This document shows positions 19,687 through 42,098 of a stretch of 59,664 bases of DNA, one piece after another. The notes beneath the pieces were generated by a model. It saw nothing but the letters and a program-made list of their open reading frames with translations. It was not told the origin of the DNA and did not search any database. How positions within the stretch are numbered: position 1 is the stretch's first letter; each line of letters starts with the position of its first letter. Origin of the DNA: a virus; the IMG/VR virus record IMGVR_UViG_3300010885_014317, positions 1-59,664 of that record; one strand, written 5' to 3'. Position numbers and translations under genes: made by a program.

Positions 19687-21408
19687 TTAAATTGGGTAGA
19701 GCGGAGGCGCATCCTTGTTGTTTTTCAGGGACAAAGAAGCCTCTGCCTCGGCTCGCCACTCTTCAGGACGCAGGATCAAGCCCGTGTCACGTAGATGCCG
19801 CATGGCCATAGACACCGTATCCACCAAATCGTCATGTTTTCCCTTTGGAAACGTCTCAACTTGGTTGATAACCATGTCTGACCACTGCCTGATAGGGGCA
19901 TAGACCAGCTTTTCAGCAAACAAATGCTGCACAGAGTAGAGACGAGCCAGCTTATCTTGGCTTTTGGGGTCAAACATATGGACCCCAAACTTCTCAAACC
20001 CGTACATGCGGCGGATTTCTTGAGCTACCGAATAGCCAGCGGCCTTGTTTTCAATGAGCAAAGTGTCAACTTGAAGGGTTCGGCAGGTTTCCGCAACCTT
20101 TTGAACCAAATCATGCAGCTCATATCGGCCTTGCCATGCTCCCATAAGCATAACACGGGGTGCTACTTCAGTGTAGGAACGGGAATAAGTAACCAAATCA
20201 CCACCTCTATTGGTGGCTTGCGTTGGTGCCATCACATTGACATCACTAGAGAAAACGCCCCAGACAGTCATAGCTGACGGATCGTTCTCTGTTTTGGTGG
20301 TATAGGCCGTGTCAAGACAGGCAATAATGGTATCCATGTTGGGATAAATCTGGTTTTCCCAAACTTGCCACCACTCGCGCTTGATAATGCCGCCGCCCTT
20401 GGGGCTTGGCCGCTGCTGTAACTGGCCAGCAGAGGCCCATGGCCCAAGTTGCTTTTCAAGAATGGTTACTTCTGTGTCACCAAACCGTTCTGGCCAAAGC
20501 AGTTTGCCTTCCCGGTCGTCCAATTCAACCTGCGCTTCCGGCGAAATAGCTAGGCGGTCCCCATCCTCGTTGATTTCAACAAGAGAATTTCCGTTGTCGT
20601 CGCAACCTCTTGGGTCATTCCACCCGATCTGGGTAAACGAATGGCGGTTCCACTCATAGCGCATGGGCAAGCAAAGGTGCGTCCACTCGCCCTCGTCTTT
20701 GCTCATGATGTGGCCCGTCAGGTCTTCTTCTGACAGCCTCTGTTGAATGACAACGAATGCGCCAGTTTTCGGGTCATTAAGACGGGTGGAGAGAGCCGAG
20801 TCCCACCATTCAATGGTGGCTGCAATGGTGGCTTCCGAGAAGGCTTCCTGTGCAGCGTTCGGGTCGTCAACCACGATAATAGAGCCGCCTTCACCCGTGA
20901 GTGCAGACCCGACAGAGGTGGAAAGTCGGGAACCGTTTTTGTCATTGTCAAACCTCGTCTTGGTGTTCTGGTCGCCTGTCAAACGAAACCTGTCACCCCA
21001 AAGCTTTTGATACCACGGGCTTTCAATCAAACGGCGGCACTTGACGCTGTCACGAAGAGAAAGCTGCTGGGCATATGAAGCATGGAGGAATTGAACGCCC
21101 GGGCCAGAAGTGGCGGTGTTCCACGGTTGGCACCACACCCATGCCGGAAAAGCTACGGAAGTCAGGGTAGATTTTGCGCAACGGGGCGGGATGTTGATGA
21201 TCAATCGCCTGATGTCACCGTCCGCAACTGCTTGAAGATGTTCAGCAACTGCTTCAATTGGCCAACCGTCAGTGAAGGTTGAGGCGTCAATATAACGCCA
21301 AGAATTTTTTAGGAACGTATAGAGGTTATCTTCGCAATCGGCCCGATCCAAATCTTCAAGTTGCTTTTCAACGTCGATTTGTCTGCCGTCTAGTTCCAGC
21401 ATTACCAT
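19687..21408 (-). CDS. terL: Terminase large subunit
   Basis: 573 residues. ATPase domain with Walker A-like 'NIPPRCAKS' (72-80) and Walker B 'IIVVDD' (177-182), 'WWDSALSTRL' coupling region and 'FVVIQQRLSEEDLTG'. RNase-H-like nuclease domain begins with 'IACLDTAYT' (~362) and includes 'TLLIENKAAG' and 'KHDDLVDTVSMAM' (~535), supplying the acidic metal ligands. It packages DNA through the portal and cuts concatemers. An alternative ATG is at 21402, overlapping the stop of the DUF551-like gene. The small subunit candidate is not adjacent but at 26396..27058. Confidence 0.92.
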   Translation of the reverse strand: MVMLELDGRQIDVEKQLEDLDRADCEDNLYTFLKNSWRYIDASTFTDGWPIEAVAEHLQAVADGDIRRLIINIPPRCAKSTLTSVAFPAWVWCQPWNTATSGPGVQFLHASYAQQLSLRDSVKCRRLIESPWYQKLWGDRFRLTGDQNTKTRFDNDKNGSRLSTSVGSALTGEGGSIIVVDDPNAAQEAFSEATIAATIEWWDSALSTRLNDPKTGAFVVIQQRLSEEDLTGHIMSKDEGEWTHLCLPMRYEWNRHSFTQIGWNDPRGCDDNGNSLVEINEDGDRLAISPEAQVELDDREGKLLWPERFGDTEVTILEKQLGPWASAGQLQQRPSPKGGGIIKREWWQVWENQIYPNMDTIIACLDTAYTTKTENDPSAMTVWGVFSSDVNVMAPTQATNRGGDLVTYSRSYTEVAPRVMLMGAWQGRYELHDLVQKVAETCRTLQVDTLLIENKAAGYSVAQEIRRMYGFEKFGVHMFDPKSQDKLARLYSVQHLFAEKLVYAPIRQWSDMVINQVETFPKGKHDDLVDTVSMAMRHLRDTGLILRPEEWRAEAEASLSLKNNKDAPPLYPI

Positions 21409-21894: not shown

Positions 21895-22100
21895 CCGATA
21901 TAAAAGACGAACTAAATTCTATTGGCGTTTTGTTGGCCCTACATAACCAAGAAGCTCAAGCGCAAATTGCGTTTGATAGCATTGCTCATATTGAGAAGCT
22001 TGAAGAATACATTAAGGTATATCAGGACCAAACTAACATTCTCCTGACCCGCGTCGAGCAATTGGAAAAAGGACTACAAAAAATTGCAGGGAAATTATGA
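21891..22100 (+). CDS. Small coiled-coil protein
   Basis: 69 residues from the ATG at 21891, which overlaps the preceding stop (ATGA). Fully helical and charged: 'MTDIKDELNSIGVLLALHNQ', then 'HIEKLEEYIKVYQDQTNILL' and a C-terminal heptad stretch. No family recognised. The translational coupling on both sides supports it as real. Confidence 0.65.
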   Translation: MTDIKDELNSIGVLLALHNQEAQAQIAFDSIAHIEKLEEYIKVYQDQTNILLTRVEQLEKGLQKIAGKL

Positions 22101-22462
22101 TCATGGATAAGTTAGACAAGCCGCTTGAAGAAATGGAATTTAGACAAAGGACAACTAATGCCCTTATCCAAGCTGGATATAAAACCCTGCGCGATGTTGT
22201 GGTTGCCAAGCAGTCCGAAATCAAAAAAATACCCGGTCTTGGTAGCAAGTCGTTTGACGAAATCAGAGAAGTGATAATTTTCTATGGTTATCACTTCGAT
22301 ATGCAAATCTTAAAATCAGCCAACCATTATCAATCTTATGAGAAGGCGCTTCAGGAAATTGAAAGACTGGAAAGGCTTCTGAAACAGCGCGACTCCTTCA
22401 TCATTTACAATAATTTGTGGGAGTCATTTAAATCTTCATTAGAGGAGAAGACAAATGATTAG
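22097..22462 (+). CDS. RNA polymerase alpha-CTD-like protein
   Basis: 121 residues. Residues 13-70 align without gaps to the C-terminal domain of bacterial RpoA (helix-hairpin-helix). 'RQRTTNALIQAGYKTLRDVV' corresponds to the alphaCTD helix with Arg265 (here Arg18) and Asn268 (Asn21). 'PGLGSKSFDEIREVI' corresponds to 'PNLGKKSLTEIK', keeping Gly296, Lys298 and Ser299 (Gly49, Lys51, Ser52). These are the residues that touch UP-element DNA in E. coli. The remaining ~50 residues are a charged helix ('YEKALQEIERLERLLKQRD'). It could bind UP-like DNA, or replace or compete with the host alphaCTD. Start overlaps the previous stop (ATGA). Confidence 0.75.
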   Translation: MIMDKLDKPLEEMEFRQRTTNALIQAGYKTLRDVVVAKQSEIKKIPGLGSKSFDEIREVIIFYGYHFDMQILKSANHYQSYEKALQEIERLERLLKQRDSFIIYNNLWESFKSSLEEKTND

Positions 22463-23012
22463 CAGACGTTTCTTTATCAGCGGCATTGTCACGACAGCCG
22501 CATTGGCATCAGCCAGCCAGTACATATTGGTCATGGCAAGTGAGCCGCAGCTATACGCTACCGTCTACGGCGTGGGCTGGGACTTGGAAGTCATCGAACA
22601 CCACATCTACGAGCCAATGTCTGTGGCTCAGTTTGGCGGAACCCCTGACATCGACAAGTTCCGGGAGGTGACAGCTTTTGTCCATGCCTTCCCTGTCGAA
22701 CCAATGCCCGAGAACTATAATAACTCCGCCTACCTGAAGCGGTATGGCATGACCTTTGGCATCCCGGGTGAGACAATCTCGACCCATGAATATGGCGAAC
22801 ACGCCATAAAAGAACGGACCAAGCAGATAGCTTATTGGCAAAAAGAGACCGTCAAAGATGACGGCTTCACCCGCATCATGGGCTATCAGGAAATGAACGA
22901 TTGGCGCAAAGCACAGCGGCCTGACCTTGAGTTTCGTGGCAAGGAATGGATGGAGATCCAAGTCAAAGCTGAAAAGGAAAACAAGGTCTATTGGGGGGAT
23001 CAGGATGCCTAA
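22455..23012 (+). CDS. Tat-signal-bearing protein of unknown function
   Basis: 185 residues. N-terminus 'MISRRFFISGIVTTAALASA' has twin arginines at 4-5 followed by a moderately hydrophobic stretch and small residues, as in Tat or Sec export signals. The mature part (~155 residues) is soluble, with 'YGVGWDLEVIEHHIYEPMSV', 'TAFVHAFPVEPMP' and 'FTRIMGYQEMNDWRKAQRPD'. No known family recognised. Translationally coupled to both neighbours. An exported early-operon phage protein could act in the periplasm, for instance in superinfection exclusion, but nothing in the sequence proves that. Confidence 0.7.
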   Translation: MISRRFFISGIVTTAALASASQYILVMASEPQLYATVYGVGWDLEVIEHHIYEPMSVAQFGGTPDIDKFREVTAFVHAFPVEPMPENYNNSAYLKRYGMTFGIPGETISTHEYGEHAIKERTKQIAYWQKETVKDDGFTRIMGYQEMNDWRKAQRPDLEFRGKEWMEIQVKAEKENKVYWGDQDA

Positions 23013-23286
23013 TGTTGAAATTTGGGACCCTGAACGGGCCAAGAAAGATGATAAAGCCAATGGCGACAAGCTTCGTTACAAGCGGCGTAATACCCCCGTC
23101 TACGAAGACATAAGCTTCCAGCTTTGGATTGACGAAGTGCACCTGTACGAAAAGAAGTGGGCTGAGAAATACCCGGATCGCGGTATGCCGCCAATCAACA
23201 GCCCAGACTGGAATGATTACGTAAATGGTCGCCCATTGATGGGGTTTGATATTGGGCAAAAGATTGCATTCAAAGCTAAATTCTAG
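23005..23286 (+). CDS. Small conserved protein, unknown function
   Basis: 93 residues from the ATG at 23005, which overlaps the previous stop; a GGGGGGATCAGG ribosome site lies upstream. 'NVEIWDPERAKKDDKANGDK', 'YEDISFQLWIDEVHLYEKKW', 'SPDWNDYVNGRPL'. Charged and aromatic, no motif recognised. Confidence 0.65.
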   Translation: MPNVEIWDPERAKKDDKANGDKLRYKRRNTPVYEDISFQLWIDEVHLYEKKWAEKYPDRGMPPINSPDWNDYVNGRPLMGFDIGQKIAFKAKF

Positions 23287-23317
23287 TTTGGACAAAAATT
23301 CGGTAACAGAGAAAAAA

Positions 23318-23962
23318 GTGAAACCTACAATTGCTATCTTTCGTCACGATCCAGAGTGCAGTCAGGAGTGCATTGACGGGATAGTTGCGGCCTTATCCGG
23401 GGACTTCCAGATACACGTTTTGGATGAGCATCAATACACACTGGATAATCTGCGGGATATAGACATCGTGGCTTTTCCCGGCGGCATAGGGGATGCCAAG
23501 GGTTATTATAATTTCTTTAAGCGCAGAAACAGCAACACCATTGCTGACTTTGTTGCCAATGGTGGCAAGTACCTCGGCATTTGTATGGGGGCCTACTGGG
23601 CTGGCGCAGACTACTTTGACCTACTGGATGGGTTAGAGCCTGTTCAATATATCAAACGGGATGGGGCTGACGTGCGCCGCTCGTATGGAACCATCGCAAA
23701 AGTTGATTGGGGTAACAAGCCTTACAATATGTTCTTTTATGACGGCTGCACTTTCAAGGGTGATGGCCGGTCTCAGATCATTGCCCGGTACGCAAACGGC
23801 GATCCGATGGCAATTATTCAGAAGCGAGTTGGGCTTATGGGCTGTCATCCTGAAAGTTTACAGGGATGGTATGACAAACCGTACTTGAAGAAGCATTACC
23901 ACAACGGGATACATCACGAGCTTCTTCTATCTTTTACCAAAAGGCTTTTGAGGGCGAAGTAG
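23318..23962 (+). CDS. Class I glutamine-amidotransferase-like protein (BPL_N type)
   Basis: 214 residues if the GTG at 23318 is used; an ATG at 23246 would add 24 residues but overlap the previous gene by 41 bases. Flavodoxin-like fold with 'PTIAIFRHDPECS', 'DIDIVAFPGGIGDAKGYYNF' and the nucleophile-elbow sequence 'GGKYLGICMGAYWAG', in which Cys is the candidate catalytic residue, then 'GCHPES' as a possible His/Glu pair. This is the pattern of the biotin-protein-ligase N-terminal/GATase1-like domain. The reaction is unknown; it is unusual in a phage. Confidence 0.7.
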   Translation: MKPTIAIFRHDPECSQECIDGIVAALSGDFQIHVLDEHQYTLDNLRDIDIVAFPGGIGDAKGYYNFFKRRNSNTIADFVANGGKYLGICMGAYWAGADYFDLLDGLEPVQYIKRDGADVRRSYGTIAKVDWGNKPYNMFFYDGCTFKGDGRSQIIARYANGDPMAIIQKRVGLMGCHPESLQGWYDKPYLKKHYHNGIHHELLLSFTKRLLRAK

Positions 23963-23965
23963 AAG

Positions 23966-24049
23966 ATGACAAATGAAATGGCTTGGGTCACTGCTTTAAT
24001 CATTATGGCTATATGGATTGCCATATGGCTTTTGGTTTTTGACCAATGA
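23966..24049 (+). CDS. 27-residue membrane peptide
   Basis: A small ORF: 'MTNEMAWVTALIIMAIWIAI' followed by WLLVFDQ, a single hydrophobic span. It lies four bases after the amidotransferase-like gene and its stop overlaps the next start (ATGA), so coupling supports translation. Function unknown. Confidence 0.5.
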   Translation: MTNEMAWVTALIIMAIWIAIWLLVFDQ

Positions 24050-24192
24050 GTGGCCACCTCATCATCATTACAGGTTTGATTTACGCATATGTTGCGGCAG
24101 AGCAATTCTTTGTTCAACGCAACCCCAGTATGGCAATCGTATATGCCGGATACTCCTTTTCAAACATAGGGTTGTATCTTTTGATTAGATGA
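24046..24192 (+). CDS. Small membrane protein, conserved in phages
   Basis: 48 residues: 'MSGHLIIITGLIYAYVAAEQ', then 'FFVQRNPSMAIVYAGYSFSN', ending IGLYLLIR. Two hydrophobic segments. I recognise this layout ('LTGLIY.YVA.EQ...G....A....GYA.SNIGL') as a small inner-membrane protein in many phage genomes; function unknown. It overlaps the previous ORF by four bases. Confidence 0.65.
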   Translation: MSGHLIIITGLIYAYVAAEQFFVQRNPSMAIVYAGYSFSNIGLYLLIR

Positions 24193-24255
24193 TTGACTTG
24201 GGTTCGTCATAAATTTCGTGTTAAGTTATCCACAGCGGCGGCAGGATATTTAATC

Positions 24256-25254
24256 ATGATTTTAACTCCGGCTGACATACAAGCCCTCATCCTAAAGATG
24301 GGAAGCATATCAAATACCGCATATTATATGGGCCGTAACGAAAGCACTATTCGGTCTGCTTTGCGGAACAATCGGCCACTAAGGGTTTCTCCCCTTGTTG
24401 AGAAAAACCATTCGCTAGAGGAAGAAAACCGAATCCTCAAGCTTTCACTAACAAAAGCTGATGTTCCGTCTAAACCACGAATCATTCCCGGCAAATCCAA
24501 AGCGTTTACAATCCTCGCCATTGGCGACAGCCACGACCAGCCAAATATTGACAAAGAACGGTTCAAGTGGATTGGCAAACACGCTGCCCAAATGAAACCT
24601 GACCGCATTGTCCATATTGGTGACTTTGCTTCATGGGACAGTATGTCAACGCATGAAGAGCGTGGATCGCTTGGACATGCCCAGCGGCCTTCTTTCAAGA
24701 CTGATCTGGATAGTTGTGAAGAGGCTATGTCTGCCTTTTACAAAGAAATCAGTTTTTTGGACATCCCGCAGGACATGGTTGCCGGTAACCATGAAGACCG
24801 AATCAATCGGTTCGAGAATAAAAACCCCGAGACTGTGGGAACTCTTTGGACCCAGTTTGAAGAAACGGCATCCAGATACCGTTGGCGCGTCCATTCTTAC
24901 GGTCAATGGTTAATGATTGATGGGGTCGGGTTTATTCATGTGCCGATGAATATCATGGGGCGGCCCTATGGGGGCCAAAACTCGGAAAACCAGATTGCCA
25001 ACCACGCTACCCACCCAATTGTATTCGGGCATACCCATCGGGCATCCTTCCGCAAAGTCCCCAAGATTGGCATCAACAATTCCATTGAGGTCCTAAATTT
25101 GGGTTCCTCCATGCCCGATGGGTATGTAGCCAAATATGCTGGCACGGCCACAACCGGCTGGTCCTACGGTATTTACGAGCTTCAAATTCAGGGCGGGCAT
25201 ATACTGCAATACCGTCATGTCTCTATGAGACAATTAGAGGAGCAGTACGCGTGA
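24256..25254 (+). CDS. Metallophosphatase-like protein with N-terminal HTH
   Basis: 332 residues from the ATG at 24256 (GGCAGGA upstream). Residues 1-40 look like a DNA-binding helix-turn-helix ('MGRNESTIRSAL'), followed by a coiled stretch. Residues ~85-310 are a calcineurin-like phosphoesterase: 'ILAIGDSHDQPN' (D-x-H), 'RIVHIGDFASWDS' (GD), 'MVAGNHEDRI' (GNH[D/E]) and 'IVFGHTHRASF' (GH-x-H). All five metal-ligand motifs are intact, so it is probably active. Substrate unknown; phage members may act on nucleotides or nucleic acids. Confidence 0.85.
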   Translation: MILTPADIQALILKMGSISNTAYYMGRNESTIRSALRNNRPLRVSPLVEKNHSLEEENRILKLSLTKADVPSKPRIIPGKSKAFTILAIGDSHDQPNIDKERFKWIGKHAAQMKPDRIVHIGDFASWDSMSTHEERGSLGHAQRPSFKTDLDSCEEAMSAFYKEISFLDIPQDMVAGNHEDRINRFENKNPETVGTLWTQFEETASRYRWRVHSYGQWLMIDGVGFIHVPMNIMGRPYGGQNSENQIANHATHPIVFGHTHRASFRKVPKIGINNSIEVLNLGSSMPDGYVAKYAGTATTGWSYGIYELQIQGGHILQYRHVSMRQLEEQYA

Positions 25255-25454
25255 GTGGTTTACACCCCAACGAACCAATCATTGATGAGTTGGTGGCGGT
25301 ATTTCGCACCAAATGGAGCGGTGCATGGTCAGAGTTCCGAATGGCTGAAGAGTTAATCGGTTTAGCCAGAGAATTGGATCGGTTGGAGGCAGAGAACAAA
25401 GTTTTACGCGATGACAGGCATTTTGCTTTTTATCGTCAACAAAGGAGTCCGTGA
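25251..25454 (+). CDS. Small helical protein, unknown function
   Basis: 67 residues with a GTG start overlapping the previous stop (GTGA). 'WSEFRMAEELIGLARELDRL' and a C-terminal heptad-like 'EAENKVLRDDRHFAFYRQQR'. A probable coiled-coil adaptor; no family recognised. Confidence 0.6.
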   Translation: MSGLHPNEPIIDELVAVFRTKWSGAWSEFRMAEELIGLARELDRLEAENKVLRDDRHFAFYRQQRSP

Positions 25455-25708
25455 TGTCAGATGATGAAGATGATGGCGACGATGATGCCGTATGGGACAT
25501 CAACGATCTAGACCCGGCTGCTTTTGAAGATTTTGTAGCCCAACGGGCTATCGCTTTTTGCTATCTGGTCCGTGTGTCAGAATTGGCACGGGATCAAACA
25601 GCCAAGGAATTGACTTTTACCATGATGCGTAAGGTCAATATGTCCATTCGGACACCATCCACCGCTGACCTCAAAGTGGTAGATAACAAAGGGGGTAACA
25701 ATGAATAA
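25454..25708 (+). CDS. Acidic small protein, unknown function
   Basis: 84 residues. Starts with an acidic run 'MSDDEDDGDDDAVWDINDLD', then a helical core 'IAFCYLVRVSELARDQTAKE'. A GTG three bases upstream is an alternative start. Overlaps both neighbours. An acidic DNA-mimic or regulator role is possible but unsupported. Confidence 0.6.
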   Translation: MSDDEDDGDDDAVWDINDLDPAAFEDFVAQRAIAFCYLVRVSELARDQTAKELTFTMMRKVNMSIRTPSTADLKVVDNKGGNNE

Positions 25709-25910
25709 TTGGAACCTAATTCACACAGCGCCTAAAGACGGGTTTGAGATTATTGCGTTTTGGTACGAGTCTCACTGGCCTTGCATGGCTATTGCGCATT
25801 GGGACCCAATTCAGTCTGGCTGGTATGACGGAGAATGGGATATCTACCCAACCCATTGGATGCCGTTACCCGAACCACCACCAGATGTAAAAACAGAATT
25901 GGGCTTATAA
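25701..25910 (+). CDS. DUF551-like small protein (second copy)
   Basis: 69 residues: 'NNWNLIHTAPKDGFEIIAFW', 'MAIAHWDPIQSGWYDGEWDI', 'YPTHWMPLPEPPPD'. Same W..I..AP.DG / central W / TH.MPLPEPP pattern as 21402..21611, so a diverged paralogue. Last gene of the rightward small-gene operon; its 3' end overlaps the promoter of the downstream small RNA. Confidence 0.75.
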   Translation: MNNWNLIHTAPKDGFEIIAFWYESHWPCMAIAHWDPIQSGWYDGEWDIYPTHWMPLPEPPPDVKTELGL

Positions 25911-25926
25911 CGAATCGTGTTATAAT
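25899..25926 (+). promoter_or_regulatory. Promoter of the 25.93 kb small RNA
   Basis: TTGGGC (25899-25904), a 16-base spacer and a consensus TATAAT (25921-25926). It lies over the stop codon of the DUF551-like gene and reads toward the hairpin RNA that follows. Confidence 0.6.
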
Positions 25927-25932
25927 AAAGTT

Positions 25933-26024
25933 CTGAGGGTTGGTGGTTCTCCCCTCAGGGACTATTGGACATGGGAAAACAAACCGTCGGTACTCTCGTA
26001 AGGAGTTCCGGCGGTTTTTTCTTG
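25933..26024 (+). ncRNA. Candidate phage small RNA
   Basis: About 90 bases between a consensus -10 and an intrinsic terminator, with no ORF. It contains a 5' hairpin (CTGAGGG ... CCCTCAG, about 25933-25959) with a G/T-rich loop, a short single-stranded linker, and the terminator hairpin. This is the layout of a trans-acting bacterial small RNA. The 5' end is inferred from the -10 position. Confidence 0.5.
25981..26020 (+). terminator. Strong rho-independent terminator
   Basis: AAACCGTCGGTACTC pairs with GAGTTCCGGCGGTTT (one wobble, one mismatch) across a short loop, followed by TTTTTTC. It ends both the 21.7-25.9 kb operon and the small RNA. Confidence 0.85.
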
Positions 26025-26036
26025 GCTAGTCAAAAG

Positions 26037-26124
26037 GGGACCCATAGGCCGTATCCCTAATATAGGGACCCATATGCCTATAGGGGAGGTACAAGTACCT
26101 AGGGGAGGTAATAGGGGACCCATA
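26037..26124. repeat. Short G-rich direct repeats
   Basis: GGGACCCATA occurs at 26037, 26065 and 26115. TAGGGGAGGTA occurs at 26081 and 26100, again 19 bases apart, with a GTACAAGTAC-type palindrome between. Noncoding and just upstream of parS. The run 26131-26141 is almost pure G. Confidence 0.7.
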
Positions 26125-26141
26125 AAAGGTAGGGGGGGGGG

Positions 26142-26157
26142 TGTTTCACGTGAAACA
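26142..26157. promoter_or_regulatory. parS: parS site (ParB-binding centromere sequence)
   Basis: TGTTTCACGTGAAACA is a perfect 16-bp palindrome identical to the near-universal bacterial chromosomal parS consensus, bound by ParB. It lies in noncoding DNA. By chance this 16-mer would be expected about 1e-5 times in a sequence this long. No ParA or ParB gene is seen in the window, so any ParB would have to come from the host. Confidence 0.85.
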
Positions 26158-26272
26158 TGTACCGATAAGTTGGGAATTTTGGGAAATTTACAGGGAGGGG
26201 CTTGGAACCTTAATCGGGGGGCGGGTCTTTCACACAGCGGGGTGGGGGCCGGTCAGCAAAAGGGACCCCGAA

Positions 26273-26378
26273 CCCAAAGTGGGTTTTGACGCCCAAAATG
26301 GTGTGACACGCCCAGATTGGGCATGAGAACCCATAATGGGTCGTGACACCCAATGTGGTGTGTCACACCCACGCCATG
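26273..26378. repeat. Tandem palindromic repeat array 1, 19-bp period
   Basis: Units of CCCANNNTGGG type start at 26273, 26292, 26311, 26330, 26349 and (degenerate) 26368, exactly 19 bases apart, with TGAC-containing linkers. The cores vary (AAAG, AAAA, GATT, TAAT, ATGT) but the flanks co-vary as inverted repeats. It lies directly downstream of the small terminase stop. The 16-mer TGGGTCGTGACACCCA (26337-26352) also occurs in array 2. Confidence 0.85.
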
Positions 26379-26395
26379 TCAAACGGTTGACACTG

Positions 26396-27058
26396 TCAAA
26401 GCTCTGACGGCTCGCCTCGCGCCTGCAACAGCAATGCTCGAAGGCTGTCACGTTGCTCGGGTGCCAGCTGCCGCGCGTCAACCGTCAGCGCGTTAACCTG
26501 CACGTTAACCTGTGCCGCTGTCAGCTCTGATCGCTCCCCATACACTTTAGGCGATAGCTTGCCTGCCATGCGAAAGCGGGTCTCGACCATCAATCTGGCA
26601 CGTGCCACAGCTGACGGATTGCTTGTCATGACAGTCGAGCCGTCCTTGCCTGTCGTCTCGATCACGTCAGACGCCGCATCGTCAGCGATAGCAAGGCACT
26701 GATCGAAGAGGACGTGACTCATGCTCTCGCGTGCGCGTGCGTAGCGATCACGAAAAGAGGCGTCTTTCTCTAAATATCGGAATACTGCCGCAGGTGACGG
26801 CATATGCGAGTCTCTACAGATTTGCGGGATAGACTCCCCATTGGCGAGCCGCACTAATATCTCGTCACCTGTCTCTTCTGTAAGCTTGCTTGGCCTACCG
26901 CGTTTCCGGCTCTCAACTAGCTTTGCCTTGCTTTCACGTGCCAAGGCTTTCGCAGCGTCTCGCTCCTCCGCTCTCATGTAGGCTCGCGTTGCCTCTCTCT
27001 TTTCACTGCGCGTCATGCCGTCTTGCGGCAATGGCAGTCCTTCAGTCTCTTTTCGCAT
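26396..27058 (-). CDS. terS: Terminase small subunit (Sf6-like)
   Basis: 220 residues. Basic N-terminal helix region (1-55), then an HTH of the Sf6 gp1 type: 'RGRPSKLTEETGDEILVRLA', 'GESIPQICRDSHMPSPAAVF', 'RYLEKDASFRDRYARARE', followed by the 'DQCLAIADDA' helix and 'KLSPKVYGERSE'. The oligomer recognises packaging DNA and hands it to TerL. Start has GGGGGCGAGC upstream. It is unusually far from terL (about 5 kb) and in GC-richer DNA. A related DNA-binding role cannot be excluded. Confidence 0.8.
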   Translation of the reverse strand: MRKETEGLPLPQDGMTRSEKREATRAYMRAEERDAAKALARESKAKLVESRKRGRPSKLTEETGDEILVRLANGESIPQICRDSHMPSPAAVFRYLEKDASFRDRYARARESMSHVLFDQCLAIADDAASDVIETTGKDGSTVMTSNPSAVARARLMVETRFRMAGKLSPKVYGERSELTAAQVNVQVNALTVDARQLAPEQRDSLRALLLQARGEPSEL

Positions 27059-27378: not shown

Positions 27379-28773
27379 ATGTTCGCAACAGACTTCGCTT
27401 TCACAGGACCGCAACGCATCGCTTTTCGCACCGCAATTACGAATAATCACAAATGGCCCTTATATGCTCGCGAGCACAATCTTTCTTCTGCGACCGCCAA
27501 GGTGGCAGAGCTGGTCGACGCTGCAATCGCATTCGGAATTGATCCCGCCGCATACGGCACGCTACGCACGCCAAAAGAGAAGATTCACGACCCGCTGGTC
27601 CTGCAATTCCTTGGCGACCGCTTTAATCCTGTGAAGGCTTACGCGAGCGAGCGTGACGCTACTTTCTGGGGCGATATCGTCAGGACCGCTGTCACAAAAC
27701 AGGGCGACCGCTTGACCGCCAAGCAATTCGACGTACTGCAAAAGATTGTTGAACGCGCTGAAACGCGCAAGGCAAACGGTGAATTTCCCGCACCGCATGG
27801 CGAGCCGAAACGCGATCCGGCGCCGAAGCTGGACGCTGACGCTGACGAAGATCTCGAGGCGTTGCGCGAGATCCTCGCACGCCGCAAGGGGGGCGTGACC
27901 GAGTCGCAGGTGATCGAGCTGATCAAGACTCACGCGAGCAAGCCTGCGCACGTCACAATTGACCTGAGCACGCCGGAAGGCCCCAAGCTCACCGGCGAGG
28001 CTTTGATGCACTATCGTTTTCCGCTGTTGCTCGCCGCGATTAGCGCCGGAGTCAACGTGATGCTGGTCGGACCAGCTGGCTCCGGCAAAACTGAATCCTG
28101 CCGCCAAGCCGCTCGATTGCTGAAGCGTGATTTTGCATTCACCGGCGCTATCGACTCGCCTTACAAATTGCTGGGATTCCGTGACGCGATGGGAAATATC
28201 GTGCGCACGCCTTTCCGTGACGCTGTCGAGCAAGGCAAGCTATTCCTGCTCGATGAAATGGACGGATCGCTGCCCACAGCCATGACGCCCTTCAACGCTG
28301 TGACAGCGAATCGCGTTGTCGATTTCCCCGATCAAATCGTGACCGCTCACCCTGATTTCATCGCTGTTGCGGCGTGCAACACGTTCGGAAACGGTGCGAG
28401 CCGCGAGTATGTCGGACGCTATCAGCAAGACGCCGCGGTGCTTGACCGCTTCGCCATGCTGGCTTGGCCATATGACGCCGCCCTCGAAGCCGCAATGGTA
28501 GGATCGCCCCGCCCACGGGGTGCACCCTCGCCGATGAGCATTCAACGCCTGACCGATCCCGCTGCAATTCAAATCCATACGGATCGCTGGCTCGAACGCG
28601 TCCAAGCCGTGCGTGCCAAGGTTGAGTCGCTCAAGATTCGCCACGTTGTTTCGCCCCGTGCGACCGTGACGGGTGCCAAGCTGATCGCCGCTGGCTGGCC
28701 CTTGAAAGAAGTCGAGGAGGCTTGCTTGTGGCGGGGCTTGGACGCTGACGCACGCGCCAAGCTTGCAGCTTGA
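27379..28773 (+). CDS. MoxR/CobS-type AAA+ ATPase
   Basis: 464 residues. N-terminal ~190 residues are helical and unassigned, ending in a charged linker ('DADADEDLEALREILARRKG'). The AAA+ domain begins ~215: Walker A 'LVGPAGSGKTESC' (~233), Walker B 'LFLLDEMDG' (~292), sensor-1 Asn in 'VAACNTFGNG' (~340), arginine finger near 'QQDAAVLDRFA'. This is the MoxR/CbbQ/CobS family, whose ATPases usually remodel a partner, often one with a VWA domain. Downstream partner candidates are the DUF7192-like and plasmid-type proteins. Codon usage is GC-rich compared with flanking genes. Confidence 0.85.
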   Translation: MFATDFAFTGPQRIAFRTAITNNHKWPLYAREHNLSSATAKVAELVDAAIAFGIDPAAYGTLRTPKEKIHDPLVLQFLGDRFNPVKAYASERDATFWGDIVRTAVTKQGDRLTAKQFDVLQKIVERAETRKANGEFPAPHGEPKRDPAPKLDADADEDLEALREILARRKGGVTESQVIELIKTHASKPAHVTIDLSTPEGPKLTGEALMHYRFPLLLAAISAGVNVMLVGPAGSGKTESCRQAARLLKRDFAFTGAIDSPYKLLGFRDAMGNIVRTPFRDAVEQGKLFLLDEMDGSLPTAMTPFNAVTANRVVDFPDQIVTAHPDFIAVAACNTFGNGASREYVGRYQQDAAVLDRFAMLAWPYDAALEAAMVGSPRPRGAPSPMSIQRLTDPAAIQIHTDRWLERVQAVRAKVESLKIRHVVSPRATVTGAKLIAAGWPLKEVEEACLWRGLDADARAKLAA

Positions 28774-28786
28774 GGGGGGCGAGATC

Positions 28787-29653
28787 ATGACAAAGAAGCC
28801 CTTGACTAATTTTCGTTTCGAAAGCCTTGGCGCGTTGCTGCAACACGTCAAAACAGCGCCGCAGAATTGGACGGATCGTTCGAGTCAACGCGAGGGCGAC
28901 TCCGGCTGGTCTGGCTCAAAGACGTTCGAAGACGCCCTCGATCTCGCCGCGCACGGCTGGCCTGAAGGACGTGCCAAAATGGGGGCGGCTGTTGCAGCTG
29001 CAAACGCCTCGACCGCTTTCGCATCCTGTCCTGCGCTATCGCTGGATGTTGCAGGAGCCTATCCCTTGCCGCATCTCGCCGCGGCTGGTGACGTCTTCTG
29101 CATGGTAACGCCTGCGCCAATCAGTGAGCGGAGTCGCCCCGTCCTGCGCCTCTGCGTTGCCGGTGCGGTGTCCGCAATGGTTAACGCAACAGATATCGTC
29201 AACTACGGGGCGGCGCTGCTGACGATTGTGGACGCTCTCGAGTCGGCCGATTATCGAGTCGAGCTGACGATTGTGTCAGCAATTCGCAGCATGGGGGGCG
29301 ATCAGGAGGCGAGCTTTACTGTCACAGTTAAGCAAGCTCAGGACGTGCTCGATCTCGATAGGCTCGCCTTTGTGCTCGCCTCTCCTGCTATGTGGCGGCG
29401 TCTAGGATTCGCTGTGATCGAGACAATGCCACAAGCCTTCGAGGCCGGATATGGCGTGCCACGCGATCCCAAGGCGGGGCGTGATTTCGACGCCGACTCG
29501 ATCCTGCTCCCCAGCTGTCAAAGCTTTAAAAAGGCGGGGGGCGTCTTCTCGACTCCCCAACGCGCCTTGGACGCTGTCCTGCCTACGTTGCAGGAATTGC
29601 TACTCGACCGCCACGCCGATTTCCCAAAGTATTTATTCGACCGCGCAGCGTGA
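28787..29653 (+). CDS. DUF7192-like protein
   Basis: 288 residues from the ATG at 28787, which has a strong GGGGGGCGAG site. 'SLGALLQHVKTAPQN', 'SGSKTFEDALDLAAHGWPEG', 'ALSLDVAGAYPLPHLAAAGD', 'AAGDVFCMV', 'NYGAALLTIVDALESADYRV' and 'DLDRLAFVLASPAMWRRLGF' match the DUF7192-type proteins I know from phages and plasmids next to CobS/MoxR-like ATPases. The 'GAA...IVDALE..GYRVEL' segment looks like part of a VWA-related fold. It may be the substrate or adaptor of the ATPase; not demonstrated. Confidence 0.7.
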   Translation: MTKKPLTNFRFESLGALLQHVKTAPQNWTDRSSQREGDSGWSGSKTFEDALDLAAHGWPEGRAKMGAAVAAANASTAFASCPALSLDVAGAYPLPHLAAAGDVFCMVTPAPISERSRPVLRLCVAGAVSAMVNATDIVNYGAALLTIVDALESADYRVELTIVSAIRSMGGDQEASFTVTVKQAQDVLDLDRLAFVLASPAMWRRLGFAVIETMPQAFEAGYGVPRDPKAGRDFDADSILLPSCQSFKKAGGVFSTPQRALDAVLPTLQELLLDRHADFPKYLFDRAA

Positions 29654-34036: not shown

Positions 34037-34078
34037 GGTCCAAATTGAACCCCCTAGAGGTCCAAATTGGACCCCCTA
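34037..34078. repeat. Pair of 22-bp spaced palindromic repeats
   Basis: GGTCCAAATTG starts at 34037 and 34059, each followed by (A/G)ACCCCCTAG. Each copy is itself an inverted repeat (GGGGTCCAAATTGAACCCC; GGTCCAAATTGGACC). They sit between the initiator-like HTH gene and the helicase gene, a plausible place for an operator or replication origin element. Confidence 0.6.
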
Positions 34079-34357
34079 GGAAAAGCCGCCCTTGAGTGTG
34101 TAAAGATTGGACGTTTGCAGGTAGCCCTTGACGCGCTTCTGCCGCCGGATGAACCCAGTGTCTTCCAGCTTCTTCATGGTCCGTTTGACCGATGTACGGG
34201 ACATGCCTGTGTCACGGGCCAGCGTCTCGACAGACGGCCAAGCACGGCCCTGCTCGTCGGCGTAATTGGCAATGACAAGGAGAAGAAGCTTTTCTGCCGT
34301 TTTGACGGGCTGCTTCAAAGCCCAAGACATAGCTTGGAATGACAATGTGACCACCAT
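34076..34357 (-). CDS. HTH protein, phage replication-initiator-like
   Basis: 93 residues. 'MSWALKQPVKTAEKLLLLVI' and 'ANYADEQGRAWPSVETLARD', then 'TGMSRTSVKRTMKKLEDTGF' form the winged HTH seen in lambda O-like/HTH_36 proteins ('A...D..G..aWPS..TLA...G.S..TV.R....L...G.I'). It is short, essentially only the DNA-binding domain. It precedes helicase and primase and the 22-bp repeats, so origin binding or transcription control are both possible. Alternative start at the internal Met of 'MSWAL'. Confidence 0.75.
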   Translation of the reverse strand: MVVTLSFQAMSWALKQPVKTAEKLLLLVIANYADEQGRAWPSVETLARDTGMSRTSVKRTMKKLEDTGFIRRQKRVKGYLQTSNLYTLKGGFS

Positions 34358-34693: not shown

Positions 34694-34929
34694 AATTTAT
34701 TTCCTGTCATCTTGGCAGTAATTACTGCGTCGCGATTTTCTTGTAACCATTTCAGCGTTGACAAAATGGCCTTTACGTAGGGCAATCGCCTTTCTACGTC
34801 TTCCATAACTTCAACGGGTCGCTGGTTCTCCTCCACCATTCGGCGGCAAACCCTTAAATAGCTTTCATGGTTCTTGACGAGATATTCCATCTCTTCCACT
34901 TGCTTGTCGATGCTCACTTTTGTCATCAT
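34690..34929 (-). CDS. Small helical protein, unknown function
   Basis: 79 residues, charged and helical ('VEEMEYLVKNHESYLRVCRR', 'VMEDVERRLPYVKAILSTLK'). Overlaps the methyltransferase stop and the HTH start. A second ATG follows three bases later. No family recognised. Confidence 0.6.
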   Translation of the reverse strand: MMTKVSIDKQVEEMEYLVKNHESYLRVCRRMVEENQRPVEVMEDVERRLPYVKAILSTLKWLQENRDAVITAKMTGNKL

Positions 34930-35453
34930 CGTCCCACAAAACGTGTCTGGGTTGGCTTCGAACGGCTGTCAAACAAATACCAACAGCAGTTATCCATCCC
35001 GGTACTGCTTGAACCCTCCATCCACTTCACCCGGCCAACTGACACAATGACATGACATATACCGAGGTACGCGGTGGCTTGCTTGGTGTGCATCCAATCA
35101 GCATCGAACAGCAACCATGTCGGCCTAATCATGGAGCAGCGTTCAATGATCTGGTGTAAAGGCACCCTATCCCACGGCGGGTTAGTGATGATGGCTTCTG
35201 CACCGTTGACATGACTTTCTAGTAGGAAGGACGCATCATGACGGATGATCCAATCCTGTCTTGGCTCGACATCGTAAGCAGCAACGCAAGACAGTCTGGC
35301 CTCACGCAAATGGCTAATCAAGGCACCATCGCCAGCACACGGCTCGCAGAATGTAAGCCCCCTACTGACATGAGGAAGTAATGGCAGGATGGCTTCCGCT
35401 GGGGTTGGATAAAAGTCGAGCTTCTTCCGTTCAAAGTCAGATCGTTTACCCAT
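34926..35453 (-). CDS. DNA N6-adenine methyltransferase-like protein
   Basis: 175 residues. 'LDFYPTPAEAILPLLPHV', SAM-binding motif I 'FCEPCAGDGALISHL', 'AAYDVEPRQDWIIRHD' and catalytic motif IV 'AIITNPPWDRVPLHQII'. NPPW is the N6-adenine/N4-cytosine signature. Target sequence cannot be told. A phage methyltransferase can protect DNA from restriction or alter methylation-dependent promoters, which matters here because a GcrA-like regulator is also encoded. Confidence 0.8.
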   Translation of the reverse strand: MGKRSDFERKKLDFYPTPAEAILPLLPHVSRGLTFCEPCAGDGALISHLREARLSCVAAYDVEPRQDWIIRHDASFLLESHVNGAEAIITNPPWDRVPLHQIIERCSMIRPTWLLFDADWMHTKQATAYLGICHVIVSVGRVKWMEGSSSTGMDNCCWYLFDSRSKPTQTRFVGR

Positions 35454-36345: not shown

Positions 36346-36694
36346 CGGTATATTCCCTTACGATAATTTCACATTGTGGGCCTGTTGGAACCCATTTCAG
36401 GTGTATCTCCTGACACAGATAATCATTTTCAATGACACCGCATTTTTCCAAAATGTCACTGATAGCTTTTTCTAAGTTACCCAGATCACGCCGCCGCTTA
36501 TCAGGCTTCACAGCATTGATCTCCAACGTATACTTCCCCTTGATACTCTTTCCGTTGAGTTGCCCTGCCAAAACCCACCCTGTGTGCATCGCCCAGTCTT
36601 TGTATTCCTTAGAACTGTAAACGCCACCGCTTTTGGTGGTTCGCCAAAGACGGTTAACACTGGGGGGAAAGGGGAGAACAATCCGTATCATCAC
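36323..36694 (-). CDS. RusA-like Holliday junction resolvase
   Basis: 123 residues (or 122 from the second Met). 'RIVLPFPPSVNRLWR', 'YSSKEYKDWAMHTGW', 'KPDKRRRDLGNLEKAISDIL' and 'CGVIENDYLCQEIHLKW' are the RusA hallmarks; the Asp residues in 'DKRRRDLGN' and the later 'ND' carry the metal site. It cuts four-way junctions formed in replication and recombination, removing branches before packaging. Confidence 0.9.
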   Translation of the reverse strand: MMIRIVLPFPPSVNRLWRTTKSGGVYSSKEYKDWAMHTGWVLAGQLNGKSIKGKYTLEINAVKPDKRRRDLGNLEKAISDILEKCGVIENDYLCQEIHLKWVPTGPQCEIIVREYTDDEGRTD

Positions 36695-37010
36695 TCTTCG
36701 ACCTTTTTTGCTCCAACATACGCACCAGAAGCTTGTAAACTTCCGATTCTGACAAACGCATCAAAAATGCGATCTCATTCGTATTTTTGCCAAGAGACCA
36801 ATATGTTTCAACGTAGTAGTCAGGACGTATGTCATGGGCATCTATGCCGGTTTTAGCAGATATGGCACGGATATATTGAACCGGAATCTTTTTCCAGCCA
36901 GAAATGGTCTGCGGCGATAGCTCCAAGAAGCTGGCCAGCTCTGATGCTGAACCGAACTCTTTAAGAACCGCCATAAGCATCTTATCTCTATCGTGTCTCA
37001 TGCCCGACAT
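36654..37010 (-). CDS. Cro/YdaS-like repressor
   Basis: 118 residues. 'FGSASELASFLELSPQTISG' and 'WKKIPVQYIRAISAKTGIDA' then HDIRPDYYV form a YdaS/Cro-type HTH. A second HTH-like stretch follows ('NTNEIAFLMRLSESEVYKLL'). An internal start at 36998 (MRHDR) is possible. It faces the rightward operon across a promoter containing a 12-bp palindrome, so it is the likely regulator of both divergent operons. Overlaps RusA by 41 bases. Confidence 0.75.
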   Translation of the reverse strand: MSGMRHDRDKMLMAVLKEFGSASELASFLELSPQTISGWKKIPVQYIRAISAKTGIDAHDIRPDYYVETYWSLGKNTNEIAFLMRLSESEVYKLLVRMLEQKRSKSDDTDCSPLSPQC

Positions 37011-41570: not shown

Positions 41571-41588
41571 AAATTCATGGAGATCATT

Positions 41589-42098
41589 ATGCTCACAGTA
41601 AATCAAAGAATATTACAGCTTTGGAAGCAAGGATGGACAAGCGGTGACATAGCTAAACAACTTAGCTTGACACGAAACGCTGTCATGGGAAAACTATATA
41701 GGTTTCGCCAAGCAGGTGTAATTGACTACAAAACAAAAAAGTCCCGTGACACAGCGTTGATTGTCATGGCTAAAACAAAAACCCGAAACCAGCAGATTGC
41801 TAAAGGTGCAGAACTTGATACTTTAGAGCCAGAGATGCCTCTTTTGTATTTCATGGAATCTACGTGTGAGCTTAAATCACCAGAAGAAAGAAAGTCTGTC
41901 GGAATTTTTGGTCTTAACTTTGACTCATGTCGCTATTCGATTTCTGGTGGCAGCTCAAAGGATTACTTATTTTGCAATCAACCTCAAAGAAGAGGTAGTT
42001 CATACTGCGAAAGCCATCATAAGATTTGCTATACAAAATACGCAGATAGAGAAAAAAATAAGGAACATAATTATGCTCAACCAAGATATGTACGTTAA
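41589..42098 (+). CDS. GcrA-family cell cycle regulator homologue
   Basis: 169 residues from the ATG at 41589 (GGAGAT just upstream; another ATG at 41577 overlaps this site). N-terminal HTH 'ILQLWKQGWTSGDIAKQLSL', TRNAVMGKLYRFRQAG is the GcrA signature (W..G.S...IA..L...TRNAV.GK..R). C-terminal sigma-factor-contacting-like part 'DSCRYSISGG', 'YLFCNQPQRRGSSYCESHHK', ICY matches 'C.....G......FC......G..YC..H'. GcrA activates sigma70 promoters near methylated GANTC sites in Alphaproteobacteria. It could redirect host cell-cycle transcription. Confidence 0.85.
   Translation: MLTVNQRILQLWKQGWTSGDIAKQLSLTRNAVMGKLYRFRQAGVIDYKTKKSRDTALIVMAKTKTRNQQIAKGAELDTLEPEMPLLYFMESTCELKSPEERKSVGIFGLNFDSCRYSISGGSSKDYLFCNQPQRRGSSYCESHHKICYTKYADREKNKEHNYAQPRYVR

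Follow-up and report, generated by a model that had tools for sequence, protein, structure and literature searches.

The parS Site and Its Genomic Surroundings

The DNA analysed here, hereafter the window, is an entire IMG/VR virus record of 59,664 bp that has no end repeats and whose gene set includes terminase, portal, major head, tail fibre, primase, helicase, Erf and RecE-like genes; a megablast of its positions 15000-39000 revealed no DNA similarity to known phage. At 26142-26157 lies the sequence TGTTTCACGTGAAACA, to which no strand is assigned and which matches chromosomal-type parS at 16 of 16 positions, being the sole match in the window at up to three mismatches. The site is located 238 bp downstream of the terS stop codon, in a noncoding stretch of 485 bp (25911-26395, no strand assigned) that runs from a small gene on the plus strand (25701-25910) to that stop codon. 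The initial annotation had described an exact consensus 16-mer in noncoding DNA, which holds, since the site is intergenic between this small gene and terS on the minus strand; its estimate of about 1e-5 for a chance occurrence is also close to the 1.2e-5 to 2.8e-5 exact matches that Markov models predict for the window. A chance value for a single window means little post hoc, and the test was therefore moved to relatives and sequence collections.

The interval containing parS is bounded by two landmarks, both on the minus strand: terS, the Sf6-type small terminase subunit (26396-27058; PF20901, 1e-33; phrog_1482), and terL, the large terminase subunit (19687-21408; phrog_38, 1.8e-85). Between terL and parS is a block of accessory genes on the plus strand (22097-25910), transcribed oppositely to the terminase genes and including a metallophosphoesterase (24193-25254). 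Another protein of this block (22455-23012) is conserved and has a twin-arginine-like N-terminus (SRRFFLSG); it has homologues in the relatives L190, L170, L176, L189 and L193, and in several relatives its gene starts just 3' of parS. A run of ten G residues abuts the site (26132-26141, plus strand), and poly-C likewise adjoins the terS-proximal parS in the relatives L170, L190, L191 and L192; direct repeats around GGGACCCATA / GGGGAGGTA lie beside it (26031-26124, plus strand). The surroundings of the window parS offered no convincing promoter. On the other side of terS, positions 27379-29653 encode a CobS-like AAA ATPase and, after it, a DUF7192 protein; CobS homologues are present in some relatives only (L170, L194). 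The window further encodes several HTH regulators, a DNA methyltransferase-like gene (34926-35453, minus strand; phrog_799, 2.7e-36) and a Cro/YdaS-like regulator (36654-37010, minus strand), which adjoins the Erf/RecE recombination genes and is the only sign of a lysogeny-like switch.

Conservation of parS in Related Viruses

Relatives were gathered from IMG/VR with TerL as bait, a CobS bait giving none and a TerS bait mostly distant ones. A TerL identity of 79% or higher combined with over 400 bp of sequence upstream is found in 31 contigs, all of which hold one to five exact parS copies upstream of terL; every contig at this identity that lacks parS has less than 400 bp upstream. The initial annotation had made its idea depend on the retention of the site in close relatives, and in each of the 31 testable contigs it is present and exact. 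The window has a single copy, the positional counterpart of the terS-proximal site of the relatives, which usually carry a cluster. On about a dozen relatives terS could be located, and there the copies sit between terS and terL, with the first 12-471 bp beyond terS; the exception is one copy in L181 (position 1771), found inside terS. The interval is open at its upper end in contigs that stop short of terS.

In 24 non-redundant intervals (46.2 kb), picked from site-bearing contigs so that "24 of 24" is a product of selection and 31 of 31 is the unbiased figure, 73 exact copies were counted together with one copy carrying a single mismatch and none carrying two, and no copy occurs in 165 kb downstream of the terL start. 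A de novo word count returned the parS 16-mer and its one-base shifts as the top recurring words, and the motif ranked first at word lengths of 16, 12, 10 and 8. The flanks of the copies are unrelated among relatives except that position -1 is a purine and positions +1,+2 are Y,T, which indicates that the copies are kept as a unit of 16-18 bp; unrelated flanks and varied positions rule out the simple descent of one block, though the copies are not all independent events. TerS identity to the window protein drops to 28-60% in the relatives and parS remains exact, so that the binder is expected to be a conserved, slowly evolving protein outside the phage.

In more distant clades, variant forms were found upstream of terL: TGTTCCACGTGGAACA (TerL 64%), which deviates at a position that is variable in chromosomal parS too, TGTTTCATGTGAAACA (72-74%), which differs in the parS core and is present in the same form in bin G047, and GGTTTCACGTGAAACA (69%, a MAG contig). 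No parS within two mismatches was detected in a relative with TerL at 76% identity (L194, 10 kb upstream searched) or in the nearest GenBank phages, MW202675 and CRP-901.

The terS-terL interval of the relatives has other compositional peculiarities. C-runs occur at 1.36 per kb against 0.01 downstream, and GGGTCCC, read on the terL strand, is found 55 times in the 46-kb interval against 4 times in 165 kb, with a strand bias such that the opposite orientation is absent from the interval; the C-runs are strand-biased as well. Among these GGGTCCC elements and C-runs, some represent the Shine-Dalgarno sequence and start of small genes oriented leftward (GGGGGACCCAATG). A further palindrome, resembling a second operator, lies a few bases from parS in L170 (9071), L173 (1161) and L176 (2629), mostly as TGAACTGTTCA, and in L197 (2126) as TGAACTATTCA.

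Partition, Integration and Replication Genes

The ParB_N model (PF02195) had no match in the window (six frames), in 20 virus relatives or in ten parS-bearing GenBank phages, and matched in 11 of 14 control genomes. The ParA-type ATPase model AAA_31 (PF13614) found nothing in the window (six frames) or in 13 virus relatives, in a search that covered this one family of partition ATPases. The tyrosine integrase model (PF00589) was likewise without a match in the window and in 13 virus relatives, many of them partial, in a search that covered the tyrosine family of integrases; both models also matched in control genomes. The initial annotation had seen no visible ParA or ParB and had proposed a check with HMMs, and its view is upheld at the sensitivity of the PF02195 and PF13614 models. 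Among 29 other parS-bearing IMG/VR records, a few of which are relatives of the window, five gave some ParB_N match and three of these exceeded the cut-off; thus, proteins with a ParB fold of their own occur in some parS-bearing records.

In the subset of window proteins that was scanned, the only matches to replication initiators were weak ones to RepL/RP-C, in a winged-helix protein (34076-34357). The absence of a tyrosine integrase fits an episomal state; the scan yielded no plasmid replication gene, however, and the signs of a lysogeny module are weak.

Occurrence of parS in Other Phages

The exact 16-mer is present in 286 of 50,697 GenBank phage records (2.3 Gb), where the simple expectation for a 16-bp palindrome is 0.54, and its 824 strand-counted places correspond to about 412 sites. 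The groups carrying it include Listeria, Microbacterium, Arthrobacter, Gordonia, Lactobacillus, Bacillus, Roseobacter and Vibrio phages as well as microviruses and inoviruses. Cultured carriers of the exact site include Roseobacter phage DSS3P8, which grows on Ruegeria pomeroyi, Arthrobacter phage Joann and Gordonia phage Woes. Of two control palindromes, one was found in four records, which represent two Rhizobium phages with two entries each, and the other in none, so that by record parS is about 70-fold commoner than the more frequent control; many records are close relatives of one another (87 are from Listeria phages), which inflates the fold and leaves the number of unrelated groups unaffected. 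In IMG/VR the 16-mer was found in at least 120 stretches against 20 and 4 for the controls, some of these contigs being possibly bacterial. Of the first 120 IMG/VR matches 45% were intergenic, compared with 30% of 20 control matches, in a crude classification too noisy to carry weight, the short contigs in this set being possibly bacterial. A search of a plasmid collection of 7.3 Gb with the padded 16-mer gave no match, an outcome that carries no information, since a match of 16 bases would probably fall short of E = 10 at that size. Among phages for which the neighbourhood of the site was inspected, parS is mostly intergenic, and it lies inside an annotated gene in Listeria and many Microbacterium phages.

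Individual genomes present diverse arrangements. The 5.9-kb inovirus bajarodino virus 6 (PQ006149.1) has six exact parS copies (635, 662, 1414, 2857, 4096 and 5628), mostly intergenic, and lacks a ParB_N match; five copies are present in bajarodino virus 69 (10 places over both strands). A 116-kb IMG/VR record (L087 / G020) contains 24 parS-type sites at 91700-112396, namely 23 of the form TGTTTCACGTGGAACA and one exact, with no ParB_N match. The left terminal repeat of Vibrio phage phi 3 contains an exact parS (2934-2949), placed shortly before the T5-like A1 gene, and further parS-like sites are present in this genome. The 23-kb record IMGVR_UViG_3300037423_000235 carries eight copies of TGTTACACGTGTAACA, at least three of them directly before a Shine-Dalgarno sequence and ATG, and this palindrome resembles an operator or the site of a ParB variant.

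No survey of host-type parS in phages was found in a search of open-access papers. It can tentatively be proposed, with rather less than even confidence, that host-type parS is a widespread, selected element by which many unrelated ParB-less phages (tailed, filamentous and micro-) use host ParB as a general factor for docking, positioning and dosage sensing; as part of this same tentative reading, the phage group described here, with its conserved cluster of one to five sites between terS and terL, would be a clear case of such use.

The Putative Host

The window encodes a GcrA-type cell-cycle regulator (41577-42098, plus strand; PF07750, 5.4e-19), also found in the relatives G031, G037 and G043, which hints at a possible alphaproteobacterial host. 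The GcrA model also matched in Sulfolobus, and for this reason the assignment is a hint only. The phage phiCbK likewise encodes GcrA (PMC9437464); a tblastn search with GcrA against phages gave no match. An assignment through MAG contigs was set aside, as betaproteobacterial, Paceibacterota, Planctomycetes and Rhizobiales bins are mutually inconsistent.

Proposed Role of parS and Alternative Explanations

The parS of Hyphomonas is TGTTTCACGTGAAACA and that of Caulobacter is t/cGTTt/cCACGTGAAAca (PMC7022226), and the same 16-bp consensus is taken as parS elsewhere (PMC10197239). Chromosomal ParB is established to be a CTP clamp that slides on DNA once it has been loaded at parS (PMC12704722). 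Judging from the sequence evidence, host ParB very likely binds the phage parS. Since a perfect parS is present in all checkable close relatives and no phage ParA or ParB is detectable, the phage probably borrows the segregation machinery of its host. In the absence of an integrase and of partition genes of its own, the simplest benefit would be the positioning and inheritance of an unintegrated genome.

According to the proposed mechanism, at infection the chromosomal ParB of the host, as a CTP-dependent clamp, would load on the parS located between terS and terL and would slide onto the adjacent phage DNA, which would then be treated as the host treats the origin region of its chromosome: host ParA would capture it, and SMC might be recruited. 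Anchored, positioned and shared out in this way, the unintegrated genome could persist in dividing cells in a carrier or deferred-lysis state, and its replication and packaging would take place at a defined location. If ParB does bind, it is about as likely as not that the benefit consists of partition or positioning and not of silencing or titration, and the full chain, from a functional parS through host ParB loading to an unintegrated genome positioned and segregated by host ParABS, is plausible at a level just under even. The interpretation in the initial annotation stands in part: the borrowing of host ParB through a genuine, selected parS is strongly supported by conservation, exactness, position, the missing phage ParA/ParB and the clade variants, most of which fall where chromosomal sites vary too, and the specific payoffs it named, a low-copy episome or ParB titration, are candidate benefits.

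Partition alone does not explain the sites that are close to start codons. In the relatives, 20 of 70 parS sites precede, by 11-17 nt, the start codon of an accessory gene that points leftward and has a Shine-Dalgarno sequence, compared with 6.5% at random positions (p = 1e-8, for a random-position null that ignores the bias towards noncoding DNA), and many sites are at gene boundaries. This suggests that ParB may also silence accessory genes until the phage copy number dilutes it. As a complete explanation, a copy-number-sensing silencer, in which ParB spreading from parS would repress the terS-terL accessory genes early and dilution by phage copies would switch them on, could also account for the second palindrome, mostly TGAACTGTTCA, that adjoins parS in nine loci (several near-identical), and for an unrelated contig in which a different palindrome, TGTTACACGTGTAACA, is directly 5' of Shine-Dalgarno sequences. 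It is nevertheless unlikely, as 50 of the 70 sites are not beside such a start codon and a convincing promoter was not found near the window site; the only site of the window belongs to these 50, which makes silencing improbable as the sole role. The near-uniformity of the phage copies (73 exact against one near-miss, compared with one exact and four imperfect sites in chromosome G051) is expected if the sites must outcompete the chromosome, that is, if many phage copies with perfect sites act as a decoy that strips ParB from the host chromosome and disturbs segregation or division to the gain of the phage; parS mimics on SGI1 destabilise its helper plasmid (PMC10954446). A decoy should however profit from more sites, whereas the window retains only one, and sites that titrate ParB could lie anywhere, whereas these keep to a single interval, so that this explanation is improbable.

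A packaging aid, in which ParB or ParB-loaded SMC marks and disentangles concatemers near the packaging start, would agree with the conserved location shortly after terS, with the adjacent C-runs and GGGTCCC repeats restricted to that interval, and with the parS inside the terminal repeat of Vibrio phage phi 3; we know of no link between host ParB and packaging, however, and this explanation is given the same low probability as the decoy. Decoy and packaging roles may nonetheless be played by the sites. The vicinity of terS is also a common location of pac sites, and several HTH regulators are encoded, so that the 16-mer could be the target of a phage protein, TerS or a repressor, coincidentally equal to parS. 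This is still less probable, because TerS diverges to 28-60% identity with parS staying exact, an arbitrary 8-base half-site would equal the parS half-site by chance about once in 65,000, and the same 16-mer occurs in unrelated phages. Finally, the palindrome can form a 7-bp RNA hairpin and the terS-terL cassettes vary among relatives, as could be expected of a neutral repeat such as a hairpin or a recombination boundary. The predicted fold is no better than that of shuffled sequences (z = -0.27), and the primary sequence is fixed with no compensatory changes; chance is ruled out by the 31 of 31 contigs, the 73 exact copies in 24 intervals and the control palindromes, leaving chance or a neutral repeat exceedingly improbable. 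Use of host ParB for partition or positioning is the preferred reading.

Comparison with Known Systems

To our knowledge, the use of a host centromere system by a phage has been described essentially once, for phi29 in spores. Here, an uncultured phage group keeps a perfect chromosomal parS at a fixed genome position; if host ParB binds it, phages have repeatedly tapped the bacterial segregation machinery, and carrier states would then be attainable with neither integration nor a partition system of their own.

The borrowing of host ParB has precedents in phi29/Spo0J and SGI1/IncC. Spo0J is involved in the entrapment of the phi29 genome in the spore, as summarised in a later paper (Meijer et al. 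2005, cited in PMC9437464). The Bacillus phage is similar to the group described here in lacking partition genes and using a host segregation protein, a use deduced in the present case from sequence, and the phi29-like phage B103 carries the exact 16-mer. Whereas phi29 is a small podovirus of a sporulating Firmicute, the gene set of the present phage is that of a 60-kb tailed phage, its host is probably an alphaproteobacterium, and the cluster of sites is fixed between terS and terL. SGI1 is likewise a mobile element with parS mimics and is partitioned through the ParB of the IncC plasmid, harming that plasmid (PMC10954446); it is, however, an integrative element exploiting a plasmid ParABS, whereas the phage would use the chromosomal system. 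In P1, N15, the cluster A actinophages and the cyanophage Mic1, an extrachromosomal phage genome is partitioned via ParB-parS, as is proposed here, but these phages possess their own ParA/ParB and dedicated sites (PMC11652158, PMC7156551), whereas in the window neither gene was found and the site is of the chromosomal type. The closest likeness in sequence is to bacterial chromosomal parS, with which the phage sites share an identical 16-bp consensus (PMC7022226) and the grouping of several sites within 1-2 kb, differing from it in being carried by a phage and in their greater uniformity, with 73 exact copies to one near-miss.
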